From IMG/VR virus record IMGVR_UViG_3300037189_003484, positions 1-23,381 of that record: DNA of 23,381 nt; one strand, 5' to 3'. The notes beneath the pieces were generated by a model. It was not told the origin of the DNA and did no database searches. It saw only the letters and a list, made by a program, of their open reading frames with translations. Positions 1-21,033 of the stretch are shown piece by piece. A program made the position numbers and the translations under genes. The DNA is from a virus. How positions within the stretch are numbered: position 1 is the stretch's first letter; each line of letters starts with the position of its first letter.

Positions 1-2990
1 TAACTTCTAAACTTACGCATGATTTCAGTAGATGTTTGTACTGGGCTAGTAGCAAAGCGTTGCAGTGTAGTAGGTGGTTTAGGTGCACGAGGCGGCTTAG
101 TACCTGTTTGATTTAATAAGGCATCATCAGCTTGAGTTTGTCTTGGTTGAGCAAAGGTTCTATTCATCCCAAAACCGCGTTCAGGCTTCTCGGTAAACAT
201 TTCATGGGAACCAGCAATTGCATCAGATAGCATGCTGTTGCTAACGCCTTCTAACCCAAGCATACCTTTAACTGCTTGTACAAAGTCTGTCCATAGTGAT
301 GCATACTTGCCTTTATGCACAGACGGTTGTGACGCTAAGAACTTTTGAAACTTTTCATTGGTATAAACTTCAGCAATAAACTCTCTGATATTTTTAAAAG
401 CATTATGTTTTTCTGTAACAACACCCATGCCGGTATTCTTTTTTGCGGCTTCTAATGCTTTATCAAATACTTCGGCTAATAGTTTTCCTGATTCTGTTTT
501 ACCTCTATATTTTTCAGTAAATGGCTCAAAATCACCTATATTTTGTAGATGTTTACCCACAGAATGAACTGTAGCTGCATGAACTCCTTCATGAAGTAAT
601 GTCCCAATAGGATCAAGTGCATCCCTACGCATTTCTATTTTATTATTTAACCCTCTATAAATACCTTCAACACCACGCAATAGAACAGGGTCTTTTAATT
701 GATACCCAGCTTTATTTACTGAGTTGATAGTCTTAAGTTTATCAATAAGTATTTGCTGGTCATTAGTTAAATATTCTGCGTAACTGTCTTGCATATGCGA
801 TAACGTTTCACCAAACGTTTTATGGTTTTCTGTTTCATCTGCAAGTTTAGTAACTCCAGGAGCTACACGTTCTAGCTCAGGCACAGGACGTTCTGAAACA
901 TCTTCTTTAGGGCCATATACCTTGTCCACGAAGTTCTCGACGTCTTGATTATTATCAACAGGCTCCGCACTAAGTTCACGAAGTTCACCTTGTGTAGTCT
1001 GTCCCTTAGCGCCACGTTGTGCTTTTAGTTCATCAATGTTCTGTTGGGCTAGCGCAAGTGTATCTTCGTTCACATCGAACGCTGTGAGGTCATCGACTAA
1101 GGGATGGTCAGGGTCAAGCGCACGTAACTCTTTAGCTAATGCACGACCTTGTTTCTCGATAGGGAGCGGCTCTTCAACTACAGGCGCTTCTTCAACAACT
1201 GGCGCTTCTTCAACAACTGGTGCTTCCTCTAGTGGAGTTGTGACTGGCTCTGCTCCTCCAGCAGGTTGTCCAACATCAGCTCCAGCAGTACCCAGTGTTC
1301 CAGCGATATCTTGCGGAGCTCCTTCGGTAGTATCTCCTCCTCGCTCATCAAGTGCTTGAACGCTATCTCTATCTGTTGTTGGCTCAGTGGTAACGGGTTG
1401 GGTATCGACATTTGGTGTCTCCTGTAGATTTAGACCTTGAATGAAATCTCCGACAGCAGTTTCATTAATCTTGCCAGTATGGTTGTCTAAAGTTTCGTCT
1501 AAGAACGCAAGGCCTTCAGGTGTAGACGCATCAACACCCAATAGTTCTTTGTATGCATTGGAACGTTTGTTAAGGCCTAACGAAGTTAACGTAGTTTCAT
1601 CTAGTACACCTGGTTTAACTGCAGGTGCTTCTTCTACCGCTGCCGCTTCAGTAGGCGGTGCTTCTTCTACCGCTACTTCTTCTACAACAGGTGCAGTCTT
1701 AACTTTTCGGCCACGTTTAACTGGTGGTGCTTCTTCGGCTACAATCGGAGCTGTTTCGGCTACAACTGGTGCTTGTGCAGCTGCTTCTGCCTCTGCAGCA
1801 GCTTTCTCTTCTGCAAGAGCTTGTGCTTCACGTTGTTTACGAAGTTCATCACCTTTAGCTTCGAGCTTACTCCATGACTCATTTAATTTTGTTTCACGGG
1901 TTGGACGTTCTTTTACTGGCTTAGCTTCGTTAACTTCGTTGACTGTGTTATCGATACTTCTTAATTCTTGGTATTTATTGTATGAGCCTGACGCAGTACC
2001 TGATATACCACCAATACCTGTACCGACAGCGAGCCCACTCCAACCAGCATCCCAAATCTCACGTTTAGCTTCTTCGGTATCTGTTGGAAGTCCTGCTTGA
2101 TGTATCTCAGCCCATTGCTCAAGCATCTCGGTTGGCATTTCTGAAACACCGATAGCAGCACGTTTAGTTGCTTCTTTAGCCCCTGCTTTTACAGTCTCTT
2201 TAATTACTTGACCTGTAGTGCGTTTAGCTAGCTCTTCAACCACAGCATCTGCCACTGCTTTTTTACCAAACTTACCAACACCAAACGTAAGTCTATCTAC
2301 AGCAAAACCAATTGGCGCAGTTGCAGCAGCCCAGTTTCTAGCGGATTCAGGGTCTAACTCTTCAGGTGCCTGTTTAGCTAACGCTTGGCGTTCCATAAAG
2401 TGACCGTATTGTTGATAGCCATATGTACCAATACCAGCTAATGCGCCTACTACAGCACCAGCTATTGGTGCGGCTGGAGCAAAAGGAGTGAACGCAACAC
2501 CAGCGGTAGTGAGAGCGCCTGCTGCATACCCCGCTATCAAGGACTCAGCCATTTCAGGGCCAGATTTTAAGATTTGCTCTACAACAAAAGAAGGTACCTG
2601 CATTGCTGCTGGTAAGTATCCTTTTTCATGGGCAATACGTTGGATATCAGATGGAGATAGTGTAGGTGCTTGAGGTTTAGCTGCATTGGTTTTGATGGCT
2701 TCCATTTTAGCTGCAGCTTCAGGAAGCTTACCTGCATCTTTAAGACGTGCTAGTTCACGACCTTCAGAAGCTTCACCAAACGATTGAATACCTTGCTTTA
2801 ATGAACCTAAAGCTCGTTGACCAAAAGAAGTATCTTCTGGTTTAACTGGTGGTTGCAAAACAGGTTGAGGTTCTACAGGTTGTGCAGCTAATTCAGAACG
2901 GATATAGTCAGCTAACTGCTGAGCGTCTTCTTTGTTACCAGCAGCATCCGCTTGCTTTAACGCATCGTATAACCTGTCGAGATTGGCCAT
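1..2990 (-). CDS. Large polyvalent ejection-type protein with HExxH metallopeptidase motif (3' end outside window)
   Basis: An open frame of 996 codons runs from ATG at 2990 to the window edge without a stop, so the C-terminus is missing. In order: a helical N-terminus (1-35); a Pro/Gln linker; a long Ala/Gly hydrophobic segment (about 151-192) able to enter a membrane; a second Gly-rich segment (about 315-335); a charged Ala/Glu/Lys coiled coil (about 371-410); Glu-Ala-Pro-Val linkers; and a domain with HEGVH at 800-804. Downstream, an EFIAE stretch (E870, E874) could give the third zinc ligand, as in gluzincin-type peptidases. The start overlaps the upstream stop as TAATG. It is the last and largest of the ejection-type genes, the position of T7 gp16, so I infer that it enters the cell with the DNA. 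Phage polyvalent proteins are known to carry such zincin domains. The HExxH motif is seen; activity and delivery are inferred. Confidence 0.8.
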   Translation of the reverse strand, partial: MANLDRLYDALKQADAAGNKEDAQQLADYIRSELAAQPVEPQPVLQPPVKPEDTSFGQRALGSLKQGIQSFGEASEGRELARLKDAGKLPEAAAKMEAIKTNAAKPQAPTLSPSDIQRIAHEKGYLPAAMQVPSFVVEQILKSGPEMAESLIAGYAAGALTTAGVAFTPFAPAAPIAGAVVGALAGIGTYGYQQYGHFMERQALAKQAPEELDPESARNWAAATAPIGFAVDRLTFGVGKFGKKAVADAVVEELAKRTTGQVIKETVKAGAKEATKRAAIGVSEMPTEMLEQWAEIHQAGLPTDTEEAKREIWDAGWSGLAVGTGIGGISGTASGSYNKYQELRSIDNTVNEVNEAKPVKERPTRETKLNESWSKLEAKGDELRKQREAQALAEEKAAAEAEAAAQAPVVAETAPIVAEEAPPVKRGRKVKTAPVVEEVAVEEAPPTEAAAVEEAPAVKPGVLDETTLTSLGLNKRSNAYKELLGVDASTPEGLAFLDETLDNHTGKINETAVGDFIQGLNLQETPNVDTQPVTTEPTTDRDSVQALDERGGDTTEGAPQDIAGTLGTAGADVGQPAGGAEPVTTPLEEAPVVEEAPVVEEAPVVEEPLPIEKQGRALAKELRALDPDHPLVDDLTAFDVNEDTLALAQQNIDELKAQRGAKGQTTQGELRELSAEPVDNNQDVENFVDKVYGPKEDVSERPVPELERVAPGVTKLADETENHKTFGETLSHMQDSYAEYLTNDQQILIDKLKTINSVNKAGYQLKDPVLLRGVEGIYRGLNNKIEMRRDALDPIGTLLHEGVHAATVHSVGKHLQNIGDFEPFTEKYRGKTESGKLLAEVFDKALEAAKKNTGMGVVTEKHNAFKNIREFIAEVYTNEKFQKFLASQPSVHKGKYASLWTDFVQAVKGMLGLEGVSNSMLSDAIAGSHEMFTEKPERGFGMNRTFAQPRQTQADDALLNQTGTKPPRAPKPPTTLQRFATSPVQTSTEIMRKFRS
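1165..1229 (-). repeat. 18-bp in-frame tandem repeat encoding Glu-Glu-Ala-Pro-Val-Val units
   Basis: Two identical 18-bp units lie at 1183-1200 and 1201-1218, flanked by diverged copies. They encode EEAPVV repeats that form an acidic, Pro-rich linker in the large ejection-type protein, upstream of the metallopeptidase region. A similar imperfect pair (ggtgcttcttctaccgct) lies at 1624-1641 and 1657-1674. Confidence 0.8.
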
Positions 2991-4405
2991 TAGTCGTCAT
3001 TTTCATTTTCATCTACTGCAGTAGAAATATTTTTAGAAGCAGGATATTTATCAAGTATTGATTTTATCTTAGGATTAAGTTTTGTGCCAGTGATAGTTGC
3101 AGCAGATGGCGTAACTATATTATTTTTATAGTTAGCCCCTGCATCTACTTTAGGCAGTACTACCTTAGATCCTGGAGCAGTTTTAGCTATTTCACCTTTG
3201 TAAATATAATCCTCAGCTTGTTTGATATAACCACTTAAAATTTCTTGATACTTATCAGGATTAGATTCAAAGTATGTTGTATACTGCCCTGCTGGATATT
3301 GCACAGCCATAAGTTCTTTAGCAGCATTTAGCACTTTAGCGTTTACTTTTGCTAAGTCTAAAGCACCTGTACCTTTAGCTTTAGCTTTTGCAGCTGCCGT
3401 AGTAGTATCATATGTAGCTGCTGCTTTAGCACCTTCACCAAGCAATGCATTTTTATCAGCCACGTTTTTGAATTTAATCTCTTGAGATTGTTTAAGTAAA
3501 CCATCACGACGTGAACGTTCTGAATTATACATTGTTTGATCACCAGACAATTCTGCTTGTCGCATAGCTTGATCAGCACGACCAATTTCAAAGCCCATAT
3601 TGCGAATGTCTTTAGCTGTAGCTCTGTATTCTTTTTCCCCAGCCGCTTTAGTTGATAAGTAGTTTGTTGCTGCATCTTTAGCACCTGGACCAAAGTACTG
3701 TGAGGTATTACCTAAAAATCCAGCAGCCGCAGCTAATCCTGCTTCTGCACCAAGACGTGATCTGAATGCTTCATTTTCTTCTTTGTCTTTATCTAGTTCA
3801 GCACGTTGTTCTGCAGCGATATTTTTTATACCGTATGAACCACGAAGTTTAGCCTGTTCATCACGGATTTGTTCGATACTTTTATATGGATTTAATTCTA
3901 ATTGTTTTTGTATTTCAGCATCTTCATAAAGAGTTAGGTCCTTAGGGTTAAAATACTTCCCAACTGGATTTTTAAGATATGCTCCAGCAGCAAACCCAGG
4001 AACATCGCCACCTTCATCAAATGCAATAATCCCACCGCCAGCGTAGCTAGCTTCATTAAACATATCACCTACTGGTAATTCCATTAACCCACCTTCCGCT
4101 GCTTGGACTGGTGGTTGTTGTGGCATAGGCATTTGCGGTGCTTGTTGTGGCATAGGCATTTGCGGTTGTTGTAACTGCGCTATACCTTGTGGTGCCATTT
4201 GTTGTTGAGGCGCAAAAGTCTTTTCCAACACTGTAGGTTGTTGACCTGGATTACCTTGAGGTTTGCTTAAGCGGTCAATACGCATCCCTGCTAATAGAGC
4301 AATGTCATGAGGTAGTTGGCCTTGTTGTACCATTTGAGCCAATAGCTGTTTATTGCCGTTAACCGACTTAACTAGGGTACCTACTTGATCTAAATTTGGA
4401 TTCAT
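2990..4405 (-). CDS. Putative ejection/internal virion protein (471 aa)
   Basis: Function is inferred from position: it sits between two other large ejection-type genes. The N-terminus (about 1-50) is helical and contains LPHDIALLAGMRIDR. A Pro/Gln/Met-rich low-complexity segment (about 60-105) follows, then the motif YAGGGIIAFDEGG (about 121-133). The rest is Ala/Lys/Glu-rich and mostly helical, with likely coiled coil, and the tail is very acidic (DENENDD). No enzyme motif is visible. GGATAATATT-like purine-rich sequence just before the ATG at 4405 gives a ribosome site (GGAATAAT), 7 bases after the upstream stop. The stop overlaps the next start as TAATG. The AGGG motif and Pro/Gln block are shared with the 552-residue protein nearby. 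Existence of the gene is secure; its role is an inference. Confidence 0.85.
   Translation of the reverse strand: MNPNLDQVGTLVKSVNGNKQLLAQMVQQGQLPHDIALLAGMRIDRLSKPQGNPGQQPTVLEKTFAPQQQMAPQGIAQLQQPQMPMPQQAPQMPMPQQPPVQAAEGGLMELPVGDMFNEASYAGGGIIAFDEGGDVPGFAAGAYLKNPVGKYFNPKDLTLYEDAEIQKQLELNPYKSIEQIRDEQAKLRGSYGIKNIAAEQRAELDKDKEENEAFRSRLGAEAGLAAAAGFLGNTSQYFGPGAKDAATNYLSTKAAGEKEYRATAKDIRNMGFEIGRADQAMRQAELSGDQTMYNSERSRRDGLLKQSQEIKFKNVADKNALLGEGAKAAATYDTTTAAAKAKAKGTGALDLAKVNAKVLNAAKELMAVQYPAGQYTTYFESNPDKYQEILSGYIKQAEDYIYKGEIAKTAPGSKVVLPKVDAGANYKNNIVTPSAATITGTKLNPKIKSILDKYPASKNISTAVDENENDD
4116..4166 (-). repeat. 27-bp-period repeat in Pro/Gln/Met-rich segment
   Basis: Two identical 24-bp blocks at 4116-4139 and 4143-4166 are separated by 3 bases, giving a 27-bp period. 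They encode repeated PQMPMPQQ units in the 471-residue ejection-type protein. Confidence 0.85.
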
Positions 4406-4412
4406 ATTATTC

Positions 4413-5867
4413 CTAGCTACCTAAAAGTTTGCCTAAGCTTAATGCGCCAAGCCCAGCACCTGCAATTTGTGATGCCATGTTTGGTGGGGCGGCATATGAT
4501 TGTTGTGTTGATGCCAACTGCACTGGAAGACCACGCAAGATGTTGCTGTAGAAGCCCAATTGCTCTTGTGGGTAATCGCGTTGACGTAAGAAGTCTTGGT
4601 ACGCTGTGTCCATTTGAGTTTGTGAAAGTGCTTGGTTTTGAGCGGCTGATGCTTGTTGAGCATTAAGACGTTGTAGGTCTGCTGCTTGCTGTGTAGTACC
4701 GAGTGAACCTAACCCTGAAGCAGAACCAAGTACGTTTTGCATACCTGTGCCATACAATTGCTGCCCTAGATTAGCAGCAAATTGTTGACCTTGCTGCGTC
4801 ATTTGCTGCCCTTGCATGTTTGTTGATTGGTTAGCTAAGGCTGCTTTCAGTGCTTGGTCTGCACCAAGACCTTGTGTTTGAAGCTGTGATGCTAGGTTTT
4901 GCACTCGTGCTTGTTGCTCATTAGTCAGATTGGCTAATGCCATCTGTGTGCCAGTTTGTGTGCCTAGCTGTTGTACGCCTAATTGAGCTTGTAAGTTTTG
5001 TTGACGTGCATTTTGCTCAGCTTGTTGATTAGCTAACATAGCCTGTAACCCAGCCCCTTGATTAGCTTGTTGGGCTTGAAGACTACGTGCTTGGTCCGCT
5101 TGAAACTGTGCCTGAGCATTAGTATATGCTTCAGCCGCACCTCTGTTTTGAATATCGCCGATTTGCTGATTTAAACCACGGCGTTGTTCTGCTTGCAACA
5201 AGGCTTGACGAGCACCGCCAAAAGTACCTCGACCAATAGAACCTAAAGCTCCTTGCTGTCTAGCTATATCACCTTGAAGACGAGCTTCACGTAATGCTGT
5301 GTTAGTTACGTTTTGAAGGTATGGGTTAGAATAATAGTCAGCGGCGCCTTGACCAAATCTTTCAGTACCTACGTTTTGTGCAGATACATTTTGAGGCCCT
5401 GCCATTTGATACGTTGTTAGATTAGGGTTATAACTTGATTGTGCACCTGACATGCCATACTGGTTTAAACTAGGAGCATATACTGATGGCGCGTTAATAG
5501 TACCTGGACGATAGCTTAAAGCTTGATTTAAACCTTGATTAGCAGCATTCATCCCCATACCACCAGCCAAATTAAAGCCCTGAGTAGCTTGATTAAATTG
5601 ACCAGGCTCACGCATTGTAGCAAACTGAGCTTGAATTTGTTGCTGTTCAGGTGTAAACCCTGCAATACGCTGACCGCCGTATGGAGTATATGTTTGGTAT
5701 GATTGTGCTTGTGTACGGTTTAATAGGTTCTCAAAATATGGACGTGCATATTCAGGTAAGTTAGTTTGCGTTACCGTTTGATTGGTTGGTGCTGGTGGAC
5801 TATCTCCTTTACCGTTATACCCTGGGTGCTTTAGAACACCAACATTAAATTTACTATTACCAAACAT
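4413..5867 (-). CDS. Gln/Ala/Asn-rich ejection-type virion protein (484 aa)
   Basis: This is a long Gln-rich protein with a structured N-terminal stretch containing LPEYARPYFENLLNRT (about 38-53). The centre (about 190-430) is helical and full of Gln, Ala and Asn, with heptad-like spacing that suggests coiled coil. Near the C-terminus are FLRQRDYPQEQLGFYSN and a final Gly/Ala/Leu-rich hydrophobic tail. Proteins with this layout are familiar to me from uncultured tailed phages, usually next to the nozzle and other internal virion proteins. I infer a role in forming the DNA-ejection conduit, like T7 gp14-gp16; no catalytic motif is seen. The ATG at 5867 follows the upstream stop by 2 bases, which suggests coupled translation. 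Confidence 0.85.
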   Translation of the reverse strand: MFGNSKFNVGVLKHPGYNGKGDSPPAPTNQTVTQTNLPEYARPYFENLLNRTQAQSYQTYTPYGGQRIAGFTPEQQQIQAQFATMREPGQFNQATQGFNLAGGMGMNAANQGLNQALSYRPGTINAPSVYAPSLNQYGMSGAQSSYNPNLTTYQMAGPQNVSAQNVGTERFGQGAADYYSNPYLQNVTNTALREARLQGDIARQQGALGSIGRGTFGGARQALLQAEQRRGLNQQIGDIQNRGAAEAYTNAQAQFQADQARSLQAQQANQGAGLQAMLANQQAEQNARQQNLQAQLGVQQLGTQTGTQMALANLTNEQQARVQNLASQLQTQGLGADQALKAALANQSTNMQGQQMTQQGQQFAANLGQQLYGTGMQNVLGSASGLGSLGTTQQAADLQRLNAQQASAAQNQALSQTQMDTAYQDFLRQRDYPQEQLGFYSNILRGLPVQLASTQQSYAAPPNMASQIAGAGLGALSLGKLLGS

Positions 5868-10628: not shown

Positions 10629-11003
10629 TTATTTTTTATTTTTTACATAGAACAGACTGCGCTCACCGAATAAGTAGAATCCAATGACAGAAGCAAAGTT
10701 AGATACTTGCTCATTAACTACCCCATTACCCACTAACGCTAGGTAGGCCCATGTCGATAACACAATTATACCAATAGCTGGTCGCATTAGTCGAATGATT
10801 GCTTCTACCCAAGGATAACTAGGATTACCACCGCCAGCTTCATTCATAGTTTTAAAAAACTCTAGGTCAATCTCTTTCATCTTTGCATACTGCTCGATGG
10901 TTGCAGGTTTGAATTGGTCTGGTGCAATGAAACGATTGATTAAAGACTTACCTAAGTCTACTGCTACTGGGCCTAAAGCCGCTAGGATTGTAATCGGGTC
11001 CAT
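10629..11003 (-). CDS. Holin, GTA-type three-helix family
   Basis: 124 residues with the layout of the 'holin of 3TMs, for gene-transfer release' family: a hydrophobic N-terminus (about 3-25), a cytoplasmic linker with acidic helix, then WVEAIIRLMRPAIGIIVLSTW leading into a second membrane segment (about 72-94) and a third (about 100-120) ending in the GERS motif and a basic tail (VKNKK). The RLxRP and GER motifs are usual for this family. It would form inner-membrane holes that release the endolysin encoded just upstream. The ATG at 11003 overlaps the endolysin stop as TAATG, so the pair is probably translated together. Confidence 0.85.
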   Translation of the reverse strand: MDPITILAALGPVAVDLGKSLINRFIAPDQFKPATIEQYAKMKEIDLEFFKTMNEAGGGNPSYPWVEAIIRLMRPAIGIIVLSTWAYLALVGNGVVNEQVSNFASVIGFYLFGERSLFYVKNKK

Positions 11004-11416
11004 TATAGTGTCTTTCCTTCTTGAAAGTCAGCAAGTGTTAATCCGCCTGTATATTGGCAATGAGCTAGCTCTTTAAATTTTGTCCAGCGCCCAGCCCATT
11101 CAAGCCCTACGCTTTCCGCAATCTCACCACATTTTGTAAATAACGCAGTATCGTTCCACATTGCTTTACCGTTAACTAAAGGCACAAAATCAAACGCAAC
11201 CCTCCAATTATGATAGCTTTTGCCTGCCGATGCGTTAGTTACCTTTTTTCCAGGCAAAGTACGGCCTTGTGCGTATAACGCATTTTGTGACTCTGCATCT
11301 CTGTAAGTTGACGTAATTAGCACATCAATATTGTGTTTGGCGCAAGAATATATAAAACGCTCGCACATTGTTTTGACTCTAGGATGCAGGTCTTCTAGTT
11401 TACGTGAGTTAATCAT
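11003..11416 (-). CDS. Endolysin, M15 (VanY/L-alanyl-D-glutamate-type) zinc peptidase
   Basis: A 137-residue single-domain M15 peptidase that would cut peptide stems of peptidoglycan at lysis. The zinc site is visible: SYHNWRVAFDF gives H69 and D76, and KELAHCQY gives H119, with E116 as the likely catalytic base. STYRDAESQNALYAQGR (36-52) is the usual substrate-side motif. There is no signal peptide, so a holin is needed, and one is encoded next. I chose ATG 11416 because it overlaps the upstream fibre stop as TAATG; a start at 11434 would add six residues inside the fibre gene. The exact bond cut (D-Ala-D-Ala or L-Ala-D-Glu) cannot be told from sequence. Confidence 0.92.
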   Translation of the reverse strand: MINSRKLEDLHPRVKTMCERFIYSCAKHNIDVLITSTYRDAESQNALYAQGRTLPGKKVTNASAGKSYHNWRVAFDFVPLVNGKAMWNDTALFTKCGEIAESVGLEWAGRWTKFKELAHCQYTGGLTLADFQEGKTL

Positions 11417-12999
11417 TATGCTGTACGATTCCACATATAGACTACAACGTATGGTTGTAGGTTAGCGTTAGTGCCACTTACACCAGAAGAAGCAGTTGTA
11501 AATGAGTGGTTATGGTCTGTTATATTAGCCCCAGTTAGCCAGCCGTTATTATCATTATCAGTAGACGCTGAACCTCGAGCATTAACACGTCCACTATTAC
11601 CAAATGGACCAGTCCCTGTTTCTCCCCAACCGCTATCATGTTGGTGAGTTGCACTTTGACCACCTGTAGTTCCTGTATGAGTATGTGCTACAACTACTGC
11701 ATCTGCACTACCACCTGTTGCACCTGCTGCAAACCCGCCACCATCTCCAATCAATACTCTACCTGCACCAAATGCCACCCAAGTACCAAAGCCAAATAAT
11801 GTAGCAGGGTTAGTTGATACTGTTGAAGTGTATATTGAACCTACCGGATGCAATGTTTGAATTACTGTAGTTGCAAAAGCGGTAGTAGCTATTTGAGTAG
11901 TGTTAGTACCAGAAGCAGCAGTAGGAGCTAAAGGAGTTCCTGCCAATGTTGGACTTGTTGATAGCACAATAGAGCCTGAACCTGTACTTGATGTTACCCC
12001 TGTACCTCCGTTAGCTACTGGAAGCGTACCTGTTACACCTGATGTTAATGGTAAACTGGTGCAATTTGTTAGTGTTCCGCTTGATGGAGTGCCTAATACG
12101 GGAGTAACTAAAGTAGGGCTGGTAGATAACACATTTGAGCCTGAGCCAGTACTTGATGTAACGCCTGTACCACCATTTAAAACACCTAAAGTTCCAGAAA
12201 TACCTGTTGATAGTGGCAGACCTGTACAATTAGTTAATGTGCCTGATGTAGGTGTGCCTAATAGCGGAGTAACTAATGTAGGGCTTGTTGCACGAACTAC
12301 TGAGCCTGTGCCCGTTGCGGTTGTAACACCTGTACCACCTGATAAAACAGGAATAGCAACGTTAAAAGTAGGGGTAGCATTAACAGTTAATGTATCAGCA
12401 GAAGCATCACCTAAGGTTGTATTACCTGTTGAACTTAATGTTGTAAATGCACCAGTGTTTGGGGTTGTGGCCCCTACAGTACCGTTGTGAGCACCAGTTG
12501 TACTGCCTGTCAACGCAGCTGTAATTGTACCCGCGGCAAAGTTACCTGATGCGTCTCTGAGTACTAGTGTTTCAGCTACGTTAGCTGATGAAGATGATTT
12601 ACCTACATATTTAAAATCAGCCAGTACTGTATCGTAGTAGGCTAAATATATTTCGCCAGCTGATACTGTAAGCCCTGTCGATACAGATGTTTTTAACACT
12701 ATATTAGCATTTGAACCGTTAGCAACAACATAAATTTTGCTTGATGCTGGAGCTACAATATTACGAGATACACCAGGGGTGCCTGTAATTCTAAGTACCG
12801 CATTACGTGATTGGTCAGATGATCCATTAAAATCAGTAAGTGTTACATTACCAGCGGTAACATCAATAGTTGAGCTACCCGCGATAGCCTGTTCAATTAA
12901 GGTGCCTAAGTTAGTATTGTTTGTTATGCCCCAGGTGTTATTCTGGTCACCAACACCCATTAACTCAATGCCTAATAAAGGGGAGTATGTACTTGCCAT
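11416..12999 (-). CDS. Tail fibre with GGTG repeats and gp10-like C-terminal domain (527 aa)
   Basis: The N-terminus (about 1-130; MASTYSPLLGIELMGVGDQN, then NNTWGITNNTNLGTLIEQAI) is a conserved phage fibre head that probably attaches to the virion. The shaft holds three 55-residue repeats, each opening with GGTGVT; the third ends in TNTTQIATTAFATT, a common fibre motif. The C-terminus (383-527) starts LHPVGSIYTST and includes FGFGTWVAFGAGRVLIG, the pattern of the gp10 C-terminal/collar-like tip, with His-rich loops (AHTHT, THQHD, DHNHS) that may bind metal and hold the trimer. It likely contacts the host surface. AAAGGAC precedes the ATG at 12999. It is followed by the endolysin. Confidence 0.88.
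   Translation of the reverse strand: MASTYSPLLGIELMGVGDQNNTWGITNNTNLGTLIEQAIAGSSTIDVTAGNVTLTDFNGSSDQSRNAVLRITGTPGVSRNIVAPASSKIYVVANGSNANIVLKTSVSTGLTVSAGEIYLAYYDTVLADFKYVGKSSSSANVAETLVLRDASGNFAAGTITAALTGSTTGAHNGTVGATTPNTGAFTTLSSTGNTTLGDASADTLTVNATPTFNVAIPVLSGGTGVTTATGTGSVVRATSPTLVTPLLGTPTSGTLTNCTGLPLSTGISGTLGVLNGGTGVTSSTGSGSNVLSTSPTLVTPVLGTPSSGTLTNCTSLPLTSGVTGTLPVANGGTGVTSSTGSGSIVLSTSPTLAGTPLAPTAASGTNTTQIATTAFATTVIQTLHPVGSIYTSTVSTNPATLFGFGTWVAFGAGRVLIGDGGGFAAGATGGSADAVVVAHTHTGTTGGQSATHQHDSGWGETGTGPFGNSGRVNARGSASTDNDNNGWLTGANITDHNHSFTTASSGVSGTNANLQPYVVVYMWNRTA
11870..12345 (-). repeat. 165-bp tandem repeat in fibre shaft (three copies, last one diverging)
   Basis: The region encodes 55-residue units beginning (S/N)GGTGVT and containing LVTPxLGTPxSGTLTNCT. 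The corresponding DNA recurs at about 11990, 12155 and 12320, spaced 165 bases. Copies 1 and 2 are full length; copy 3 diverges after its first 25 or so residues. Confidence 0.85.
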
Positions 13000-18399: not shown

Positions 18400-18819
18400 C
18401 TAAGAAATTCTAATAATTGCATTGTTTGCGTCGTTTGTAGGGAATGTCACAGTAAATGTACTTGTGGCGGTTTTATCTTCACCAAAGTTTAGTACTGCAA
18501 CCGCTGCATTTGTTGATGCGTTATATATCAAGGCACCTCTAGTTGTAAAGCTAGCAGGATTCCAAGTGGAATTTGCAAATGTAACCACAGCTGTTGATCC
18601 GCTTAATAGCGGAGATACTTTAGTTAATGTATTTCCACCCGCTGTGTAGCCAGTGCCTGATATTTCATTGGTCGTTGTATATACCGTAGTATCGGCAGAA
18701 AGATTGGCAGCTTCGGTGTATAACGCAATCTTGTATACAAATGCTGAACCTACATCAAAGTCTTCTAACCCTTTGAGTACATTTAACTTAAATATGTTAC
18801 ATAAGTTTTGCGTTATCAT
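18400..18819 (-). CDS. Conserved phage structural protein of unknown function (139 aa)
   Basis: The protein has a conserved pattern: YKIALYTEAANLSADTTVY, GTGYTAGGNTLT, FTTRGALIYN, VAVLNFGEDKTATSTFTVTF and a final IIRIS. Strands alternate throughout, so a single beta-sandwich or jelly-roll is likely. I have seen this pattern beside the 203-residue type of gene in other uncultured phages, so the two may act together in the neck or tail. The ATG at 18819 overlaps the adaptor gene stop as ATGA. The stop is TAG, unlike the TAA used by most neighbours. Confidence 0.78.
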   Translation of the reverse strand: MITQNLCNIFKLNVLKGLEDFDVGSAFVYKIALYTEAANLSADTTVYTTTNEISGTGYTAGGNTLTKVSPLLSGSTAVVTFANSTWNPASFTTRGALIYNASTNAAVAVLNFGEDKTATSTFTVTFPTNDANNAIIRIS

Positions 18820-19445
18820 TGAACAGGAATCCTAACTTGACCATTACGATAAGCATCACGACGGTTTTTACCATCACCCAACTGTTTGAGTAAGAACATC
18901 GCATCGTCATAGCGTTTTTGGTAGCCAGCTATAACATCTGGTTCACCCTTCATGTACGTATAAGCTTCCAATAAAGACCCATACAATAGAGCGGAATCAA
19001 AATTGTCACCGAGCCAAGTAGTGCCAGCAGTAACAATAGACTCAGGATAGTAATAGTAATGCAGCTCAACATTATAGTTAGAATCGGGTGTTGGTCCAAG
19101 AATAAAAGTATTCTGATCGAAAAGGGCATAATATTCAGGTAGTGCTGTATCTGTAGGTTGTGGATATGAAGCACGAATAAAGTTTACGTCTTTGTCTAAC
19201 AAGTATGTATAGTTGCCCGTTGCATCAATCACAGCAATAGAAAACGTTGCTAACCAATCTGTAGGGCATGTAAGGTACTTATTATTAACTGTTAGTGTGC
19301 CAGTTACGTTTTTACGGATAGCAGGGAATTGAACGCTATTATAGATGCGTTGTTCTGCTTGTTCGATAAACGTATTAATATCTGCAGTCTCAAACTGATT
19401 TTCAGTATAGCTTTCAATTTCCGAAACTAATTGAGAGTAGTTCAT
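18816..19445 (-). CDS. Head-to-tail adaptor protein, SU10-type (209 aa)
   Basis: The sequence follows the SU10 adaptor family: an N-terminal helical pair (MNYSQLVSEIESYTE, TFIEQAEQRIYNSVQFPAIRK), a strand block (GTLTVNNKYLTCPTDWLATF), then LPEYYALFDQNTFILGPTPD with VELHYYYYPESI, and C-terminal helices with DSALLYGSLLEAYTYMKGEP. The end is GQVRIPVQ. Twelve such subunits usually sit under the portal and receive the nozzle and fibres. Upstream AAGG gives a ribosome site. The fold pattern matches that of the 242-residue protein three genes upstream, suggesting an ancient duplication. Confidence 0.82.
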   Translation of the reverse strand: MNYSQLVSEIESYTENQFETADINTFIEQAEQRIYNSVQFPAIRKNVTGTLTVNNKYLTCPTDWLATFSIAVIDATGNYTYLLDKDVNFIRASYPQPTDTALPEYYALFDQNTFILGPTPDSNYNVELHYYYYPESIVTAGTTWLGDNFDSALLYGSLLEAYTYMKGEPDVIAGYQKRYDDAMFLLKQLGDGKNRRDAYRNGQVRIPVQ

Positions 19446-20304: not shown

Positions 20305-21033
20305 TTACCTAATAAACTGCATGCGTGGTGCTAAACGAATAGCTGCTTTCTCTCTATCTTCATCAGCGGCTAATTGAAATGCTTGTTCATATTCAGCTTT
20401 AAGGAACTGAGCTCGCTCCATGCCTTCTGGTATTTTTTGTGATAGATAAAATGCTAATCCTGCAACCATTGCAGGTAAGAAACGAAACGGGATATCTTGT
20501 GTATGAGACCCACCATCGCCTGCATCTTGAATTCGACGTAAACGGTAGTAGAATAAAGTGTAGTAGTTGCTTTGTTCTGGGGCAGGCCACAAATTAACTT
20601 GTGGGTTTTTAATGCCTGTTACTGGGTAATCTGCACCTGATTGGCGATTAATCCAGATTTGAATTGGGCGCCCTTGAGCGTTTTTATTAGGAATCGTAAT
20701 GTATGTAGACTCACTAATACGCGTGATATTAATGTCTGTTTGGTTTTGACCTGTGCCTGTACGTACTACATGGTCTAGCAAATCAATTGTATCTACAGGT
20801 AAGTCATAAACAATTTGACCTTGAACTAATGGGATAGTACCTTGCTCAACAGTCCATAAATTAATGCCGCGATTTGCCCACTCGATAGTGAGTAGATTTA
20901 AACTACGACGTGCTGTTTTAAGGTCGTAGCCAGTACGCAGTTCAGAGCCGCAACGCTCGAACGCTTCCTCTACTAGATTGTTTAAATCTAGATTAAAGGT
21001 ACTTGTGCCTGATACTGTTGTTGTGATCGCCAT
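20305..21033 (-). CDS. Head-to-tail adaptor / tail tubular protein A-like (242 aa)
   Basis: The protein has an N-terminal helical part (LNNLVEEAFERCGSELRTG, then ARRSLNLLTIEWANRGINLW), a strand block (GTIPLVQGQIVYDLPVDTID), then PIQIWINRQSG and VNLWPAPEQSNYYTLFYYRL, and C-terminal helices (FLPAMVAGLAFYLSQKIPEG). This is the layout of T7 gp11/P22 gp4-like adaptors. It would bind the portal and start the tail. It shares a helix-strand-helix layout with the 209-residue adaptor. The ATG at 21033 lies 3 bases after the stop of a 41-residue gene. Which of the two adaptors touches the portal cannot be decided here. Confidence 0.8.
   Translation of the reverse strand: MAITTTVSGTSTFNLDLNNLVEEAFERCGSELRTGYDLKTARRSLNLLTIEWANRGINLWTVEQGTIPLVQGQIVYDLPVDTIDLLDHVVRTGTGQNQTDINITRISESTYITIPNKNAQGRPIQIWINRQSGADYPVTGIKNPQVNLWPAPEQSNYYTLFYYRLRRIQDAGDGGSHTQDIPFRFLPAMVAGLAFYLSQKIPEGMERAQFLKAEYEQAFQLAADEDREKAAIRLAPRMQFIR

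Follow-up and report, generated by a model that had tools for sequence, protein, structure and literature searches.

The commonest domain of phage polyvalent proteins is a zincin-type MPTase, and Iyer et al., who described it in 2017, also placed one in the virion RNA polymerase (vRNAP) of phage N4 and proposed that such domains process their own carrier, before or after delivery, or act as effectors (PMC5512222). The same domain was noted in the Cbunavirus vRNAP in 2021 (PMC8472413) and in the N4 structure in 2025, where it forms the C1 domain, at about residues 2182-2377 (PMC12633501). Two other solved ejected proteins are of direct concern here, and both go by a different name. Gp37 of phiKMV-type phages carries the database label 'internal virion protein with endolysin domain', and gp48 of the Pectobacterium phage PhiM1, a tetrameric ejection protein solved within the virion ejectosome, has its residues 268-528 termed endolysin/exotransglycosidase-like in a 2024 paper, on the basis of BLASTP and DALI (PMC11440229). 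We read the domain in both as a zincin, and we describe here a viral protein that appears to carry the same domain within a giant polypeptide.

The window, by which we mean the whole stretch of DNA analysed, is an entire IMG/VR virus record of 23,381 bases, and its minus strand holds a reading frame of 996 codons with an ATG start, which exits the contig end at window position 1 and so encodes a protein with a truncated C-terminus. The features on which the following argument draws are these:

3-2990, minus strand: ejection/polyvalent protein reading frame, 996 codons, with full-length homologues in loci L014 (2087 aa), L135, L136 and L137
2889-2972, minus strand: N-terminal motif YDALKQADAAGNKEDAQQLADYIR, within residues 7-34, common to many otherwise differing phage proteins
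2424-2504, minus strand: hydrophobic Gly/Ala-rich stretch, residues 163-189, a possible membrane-interacting segment (Kyte-Doolittle maximum 1.67, 19-residue window)
1131-1250, minus strand: acidic Pro/Val-rich linker, about residues 581-620
183-815, minus strand: zincin (MPTase) domain, about residues 726-936, placed by tblastn to gp37, profile matches, AF2 and VIA-align
579-593, minus strand: HEGVH, residues 800-804, with predicted zinc ligands H800 and H804 and general base E801
381-383, minus strand: E870, the third zinc ligand by prediction, unchanged throughout alignments A1, A3 and A5 and on helix 139-148 of the AF2 model
369-371, minus strand: E874, second Glu of EFIAE, not conserved and variable in A3 and A5

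A preliminary description of this DNA had singled out HEGVH (800-804) and EFIAE (870-874) as a gluzincin-type zincin site in a protein with membrane-like and acidic Pro-rich segments, and all of these elements are present. An HExxH motif is expected by chance only 0.02 times in a protein of such composition, and HEGVH is not a chance occurrence, because the surrounding domain (residues 714-936) aligns to phiKMV/LUZ19 gp37 (tblastn, best match E 2e-9) and because H800, E801, H804 and the Glu matching E870 are invariant in A1, A3 and A5. Indeed, this catalytic set is kept in every relative compared, down to about 20% identity. HExxH occurs in all 34 distinct domain matches among the loci examined, and a regular [ND]xxE in 31, the other three having the downstream Glu on inspection; matches gathered through a motif-built alignment lean towards the motif, yet the 8vb2, 23sg and N4 chains lie outside A1 and match all the same. 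Both Glu residues of EFIAE had been put forward as the third ligand; E870 holds, whereas E874 was rejected because its position is variable (W, G, Y, L and others). The protein thus has an HExxH with its general-base Glu and, on a later helix of the AF2 model, a Glu suited to be the third ligand, which is the gluzincin pattern, and we are confident that it contains a real zincin fold with an intact site.

Scanned directly against Pfam, PHROGs and NCBIfam, the window protein yielded nothing of use, no Pfam metallopeptidase family matched it above the gathering score, and just two of the 11 A1 members touch the Pfam SprT-like family (best E 5.5e-4); no Pfam model reaches this domain family. A search of viral contigs and genome contigs with a nucleotide pattern for the domain found no relative; relatives were found by whole-protein, neighbour-gene and N-terminal-alignment searches. 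A1 was too divergent for a pattern search.

The window-domain profile, run against the PDB, links the domain to four solved ejected proteins: the phiKMV/LUZ19 gp37 type (9sfn chain G, E 2.8e-55, a value inflated because the profile includes a gp37 sequence), PhiM1 gp48 (8vb2_A, 3.6e-9), N4 vRNAP (about 7e-9) and 'gp10' (23sg, 9e-6). With the A1 profile the values are 1.6e-54 for 9sfn_G, 2.6e-19 for 8vb2_A and 4.6e-11 for 23sg, all three being outside A1, although 9sfn_G resembles an A1 row. No T7 gp16 chain is among the PDB profile matches; the T7 gp16 position given to this gene in the preliminary description is right as gene order and not by sequence, the domain being common instead to phiKMV gp37 and N4 vRNAP. 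Starting from LUZ19, a second search extended to the virion RNA polymerases of Schitoviridae, a DarB-like antirestriction protein and further ejection proteins. Gp37 shares with the window protein the motifs LHExxHAAT and NxxE(L/F)(V/I)A and, like it, comes last in the ejection gene cluster; it is 1337 residues long with the domain at about 352-559, whereas in the window the domain lies at 726-936 of a longer protein. PhiM1 gp48 likewise has LHExxHA and a downstream Glu. The resemblance to the N4 vRNAP MPTase extends to HExxH with a Glu on a later helix, a three-stranded sheet with helices, and the setting of a large ejected protein, with LPD38- or LPD39-bearing homologues as in polyvalent MPTases; unlike N4 vRNAP, the available part of the window protein has no RNA polymerase module, and its domain, only 18-21% identical to the Schitoviridae vRNAP versions, sits on a different scaffold with its own N-terminus. 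What had been suggested as an undescribed activity belongs, then, to a class that is already described.

The better AF2 model, built from 16 sequences (pLDDT 71.6, pTM 0.70), predicts an N-terminal helix, three strands (E28-30, E47-50 and E55-58), the HExxH helix (65-85) and the helix bearing E870 (139-148), an order that equals the MPTase core layout given in PMC5512222 and puts the two parts of the site on the two helices where a gluzincin should have them. Foldseek found no match with E < 0.001 for either AF2 model, and VIA-align was run on the Foldseek candidates. Heading its list are metallopeptidases or toxin domains of lethal-factor/PPEP type, HExxH gluzincins with Z 5.6-7.8 (lethal-factor catalytic domain 7.8, PPEP-2 6.4), where Z below 8 is middling, with an rmsd of 3.7-4.2 over about 140 residues in the top rows and about 11-15% identity. 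Although no Foldseek E-value is significant, the predicted layout and the gluzincins in the top rows support a zincin fold, and the likeness to lethal factor and the Pro-Pro endopeptidases speaks of a shared fold only, not of a shared function.

What lies beyond the cut? The gene continues past the window, and homologues show what the rest may look like. A whole-protein search found a homologous 2087-codon reading frame shared by L014 and L015. Identity between the L014 protein and the window protein is 80% for window residues 1-120 and 73% for 121-350, and HEVMH and NPLEMISE stand where the window protein has HEGVH and EFIAE. An N-terminal alignment search added three homologues, with HEVVH (2255 aa), HEVVH (2224 aa) and HEVLH (2071 aa). 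Loss of the site in close homologues, named beforehand as an outcome that would count against it, was not seen, since these four full-length proteins all keep it. The longer homologues span 1992-2255 aa and carry LPD38, as in L014 (C-terminal part, E 8e-17) and L097 (E 1e-23), or LPD39, as in L135 and L137 (both of the two scanned among L135-L137), and in them MPTase and LPD domains are combined in one very large protein, as in polyvalent proteins. PTXU04, a phage grown on E. coli, likewise has a homologous LPD38 protein. On this evidence the window protein is a truncated phage polyvalent protein and, judged by these alignments, its reading frame is about the first half of a giant one, cut before the LPD part. 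A reading frame on a 7388-base contig (L101:3-2567) begins a few codons past the cut point of the window gene and is 71% identical to the C-terminal half of the L014 protein; it may come from a related genome. Another large protein, of 2668 aa (L165:223-8229, Vibrio phage 44E38.1), combines LPD38, a methyltransferase domain and a pair of HExxH motifs.

The N-terminus is of separate interest. The pattern YDALxQADAAGNxEDAxxLADYIR (window 2889-2972, minus strand; loci L133-L163) is found in many phage proteins of 450-2255 aa that look unlike each other elsewhere, and it is possible that it serves as a packaging or ejection tag.

The genes around the reading frame suggest that its product may be a virion protein. 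Two of them directly precede it:

2990-4405, minus strand: upstream gene of 471 aa; its counterpart, immediately ahead of the L014 homologue, is 52% identical
4413-5867, minus strand: ejection-like protein, 484 aa, with a weak match to phrog_4287 'DNA ejection protein' (E 7e-5), 68% identical in L014

Three large genes preceding the reading frame match those preceding the L014 homologue (44-68% identity), and its position as the last of the ejection genes agrees with L014 and with phage DSL-LC04, in which the positional counterpart is annotated 'DNA transfer protein'. The earlier view of a large, probably ejected protein, last in the ejection order, is thereby borne out, and from gene order and the solved virion homologues we consider that the window protein is probably packaged in the virion and ejected with the DNA. 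Elsewhere in the window, 11003-11434 (minus strand) encodes a VanY/M15-type D-Ala-D-Ala carboxypeptidase (Pfam E 2.6e-12), which is probably the enzyme with which the phage lyses its host, and 18816-19445 and 20305-21033 (minus strand) are separate genes that each match the Pfam family of SU10 adaptors, at E 4e-25 and 3e-10.

The slot that the domain occupies varies between phages. Nine of 40 records sharing a neighbouring gene carried the domain profile, several of the records being fragments. Some relatives have an HExxxH spacing (HEVGVH in L016:16702-21135, HEAVGH in L148:7974-14213 and HEIIVH in L164, PTXU04 gp25), and a similar HEXXXH variant was described by Iyer et al. (PMC5512222). L040, a scaffold relative, has no HExxH-type site; this and the lack of a standard HExxH in L016 indicate that some phages can do without the domain. 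When the window and L014 proteins are compared, identity is 57-80% before the domain, falls to 17% at residues 700-743 and 27-31% at 744-940, and returns to 62% after it, and a tree pairs the window with L017 (88/91). This drop and this pairing suggest that the zincin module may have been exchanged between phages, but a tree that unites the window with L014 cannot be rejected (p-AU 0.077), so that exchange is a possibility only.

How might such a protein work? The reading frame would encode the N-terminal part of a protein of about 2000 residues that a short-tailed phage packages in its virions and ejects together with its DNA. H800, H804 and E870 would bind zinc and E801 would activate the water, and the peptidase would act after ejection, mainly on its own polypeptide, where the Pro-rich linkers flanking the domain are possible cleavage sites, or on co-ejected partners; cleavage would free the membrane-associated N-terminal part to work apart from the C-terminal part. 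We give this whole explanation, a polyvalent MPTase-type zincin acting as a zinc peptidase on itself or its partners after ejection, a probability of roughly 55%. Its parts are not equally firm: the domain, with its catalytic set kept in distant relatives, its predicted zincin layout and its LPD38/LPD39-bearing homologues, is real; that it is a working peptidase is probable; and that self or partner processing is its main job we hold only tentatively, at somewhat under even odds. The strongest evidence against spontaneous self-cleavage is that N4 vRNAP is reported to be packaged unprocessed (PMC5512222) and that the purified protein showed no degradation in the cryo-EM study (PMC12633501). In addition, phiKMV-type gp37 has no other Pfam domain that would need release, which also counts against self-processing.

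The main rival to processing of self or partners is a peptidase that is active but cuts a host protein, as an effector with an envelope, defence or protease target, and leaves its carrier alone. The unprocessed N4 vRNAP suits this idea, as do the recurrence of the domain in otherwise unrelated ejected proteins (phiKMV gp37, N4 vRNAP and the DarB-like antirestriction protein) and its low identity between well-conserved flanks in the window/L014 comparison, as for a fast-changing or exchanged module. However, Iyer et al. list self-processing too, and the domain is kept across phages of very different hosts, which makes a single conserved host target unlikely; we regard an effector as the less favoured, though serious, candidate. 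We find it rather improbable that the domain is a structural or vestigial metal-binding zincin that helps to form the ejectosome's core stack or hub without cutting anything: in PhiM1 the tetrameric ejection protein has the domain-containing region inserted in its hub (PMC11440229), and the N4 vRNAP MPTase region is reported as required for encapsidation (PMC5512222), but the general base E801 is invariant besides the three ligands, and a structural site would not need it. An HExxH alpha-ketoglutarate-dependent oxygenase is very improbable. The N4 vRNAP paper does cite the ChlB-type family (PMC12633501), and the ChlB oxygenase domain is among our structural matches, yet at Z 3.9 it scores below the peptidase folds already mentioned.

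A peptidoglycan-cutting endolysin or transglycosylase, as the annotations of gp37 homologues and the PhiM1 structure paper (PMC11440229) would have it, we likewise consider highly unlikely. With E values up to 1 allowed, neither LUZ19 gp37 nor a PhiM1-type homologue matches any model in Pfam or NCBIfam, be it lysozyme, transglycosylase or another, the window protein has no lysozyme or lytic transglycosylase domain in those two databases, and HExxH with a distant Glu is no transglycosylase site. T7 gp16 has its transglycosylase/lytic domain in residues 1-156 (PMC8954989). LUZ19 gp37 aligns to phrog_342 only from profile position 168 and thus lacks the profile start, the expected site of that domain, and for gp37 residues 415-562 the match is to the family of virion RNA polymerases. 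The endolysin reading was rejected on these family scans and this alignment start, and the comparison suggests that the label of gp37 and PhiM1 gp48 was inherited from the N-terminal lytic domain of T7 gp16, which gp37 appears to lack. PhiKMV is unmentioned in PMC5512222 and PMC12633501, and the zincin passages of PMC8472413, which also mentions phiKMV, concern the vRNAP; within the open-access literature, of incomplete coverage, the zincin domain in these endolysin-labelled proteins may be new.

Returning to the zincin peptidase that we prefer, what had been a guess gives way to a defined domain for which solved homologues can be named, and a probable mislabelling comes to light in the well-studied phages phiKMV, LUZ19 and PhiM1. 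The domain also ties gp16-type ejection proteins by sequence to the N4 virion RNA polymerase; the N4 paper calls these proteins analogous while reporting that, for DEV, a related phage, no similarity in sequence could be detected (PMC12633501). A broader and more speculative reading, which we think doubtful, is that the zincin is a common, exchangeable part of podophage inner-membrane ejection proteins, joining phiKMV/PhiM1-type gp16 analogues, N4 vRNAPs and the giant LPD38/LPD39 proteins, that it cuts a protein at DNA entry, and that the 'endolysin' label has hidden this. If the domain is active, proteolysis would become a testable step of phage DNA entry.
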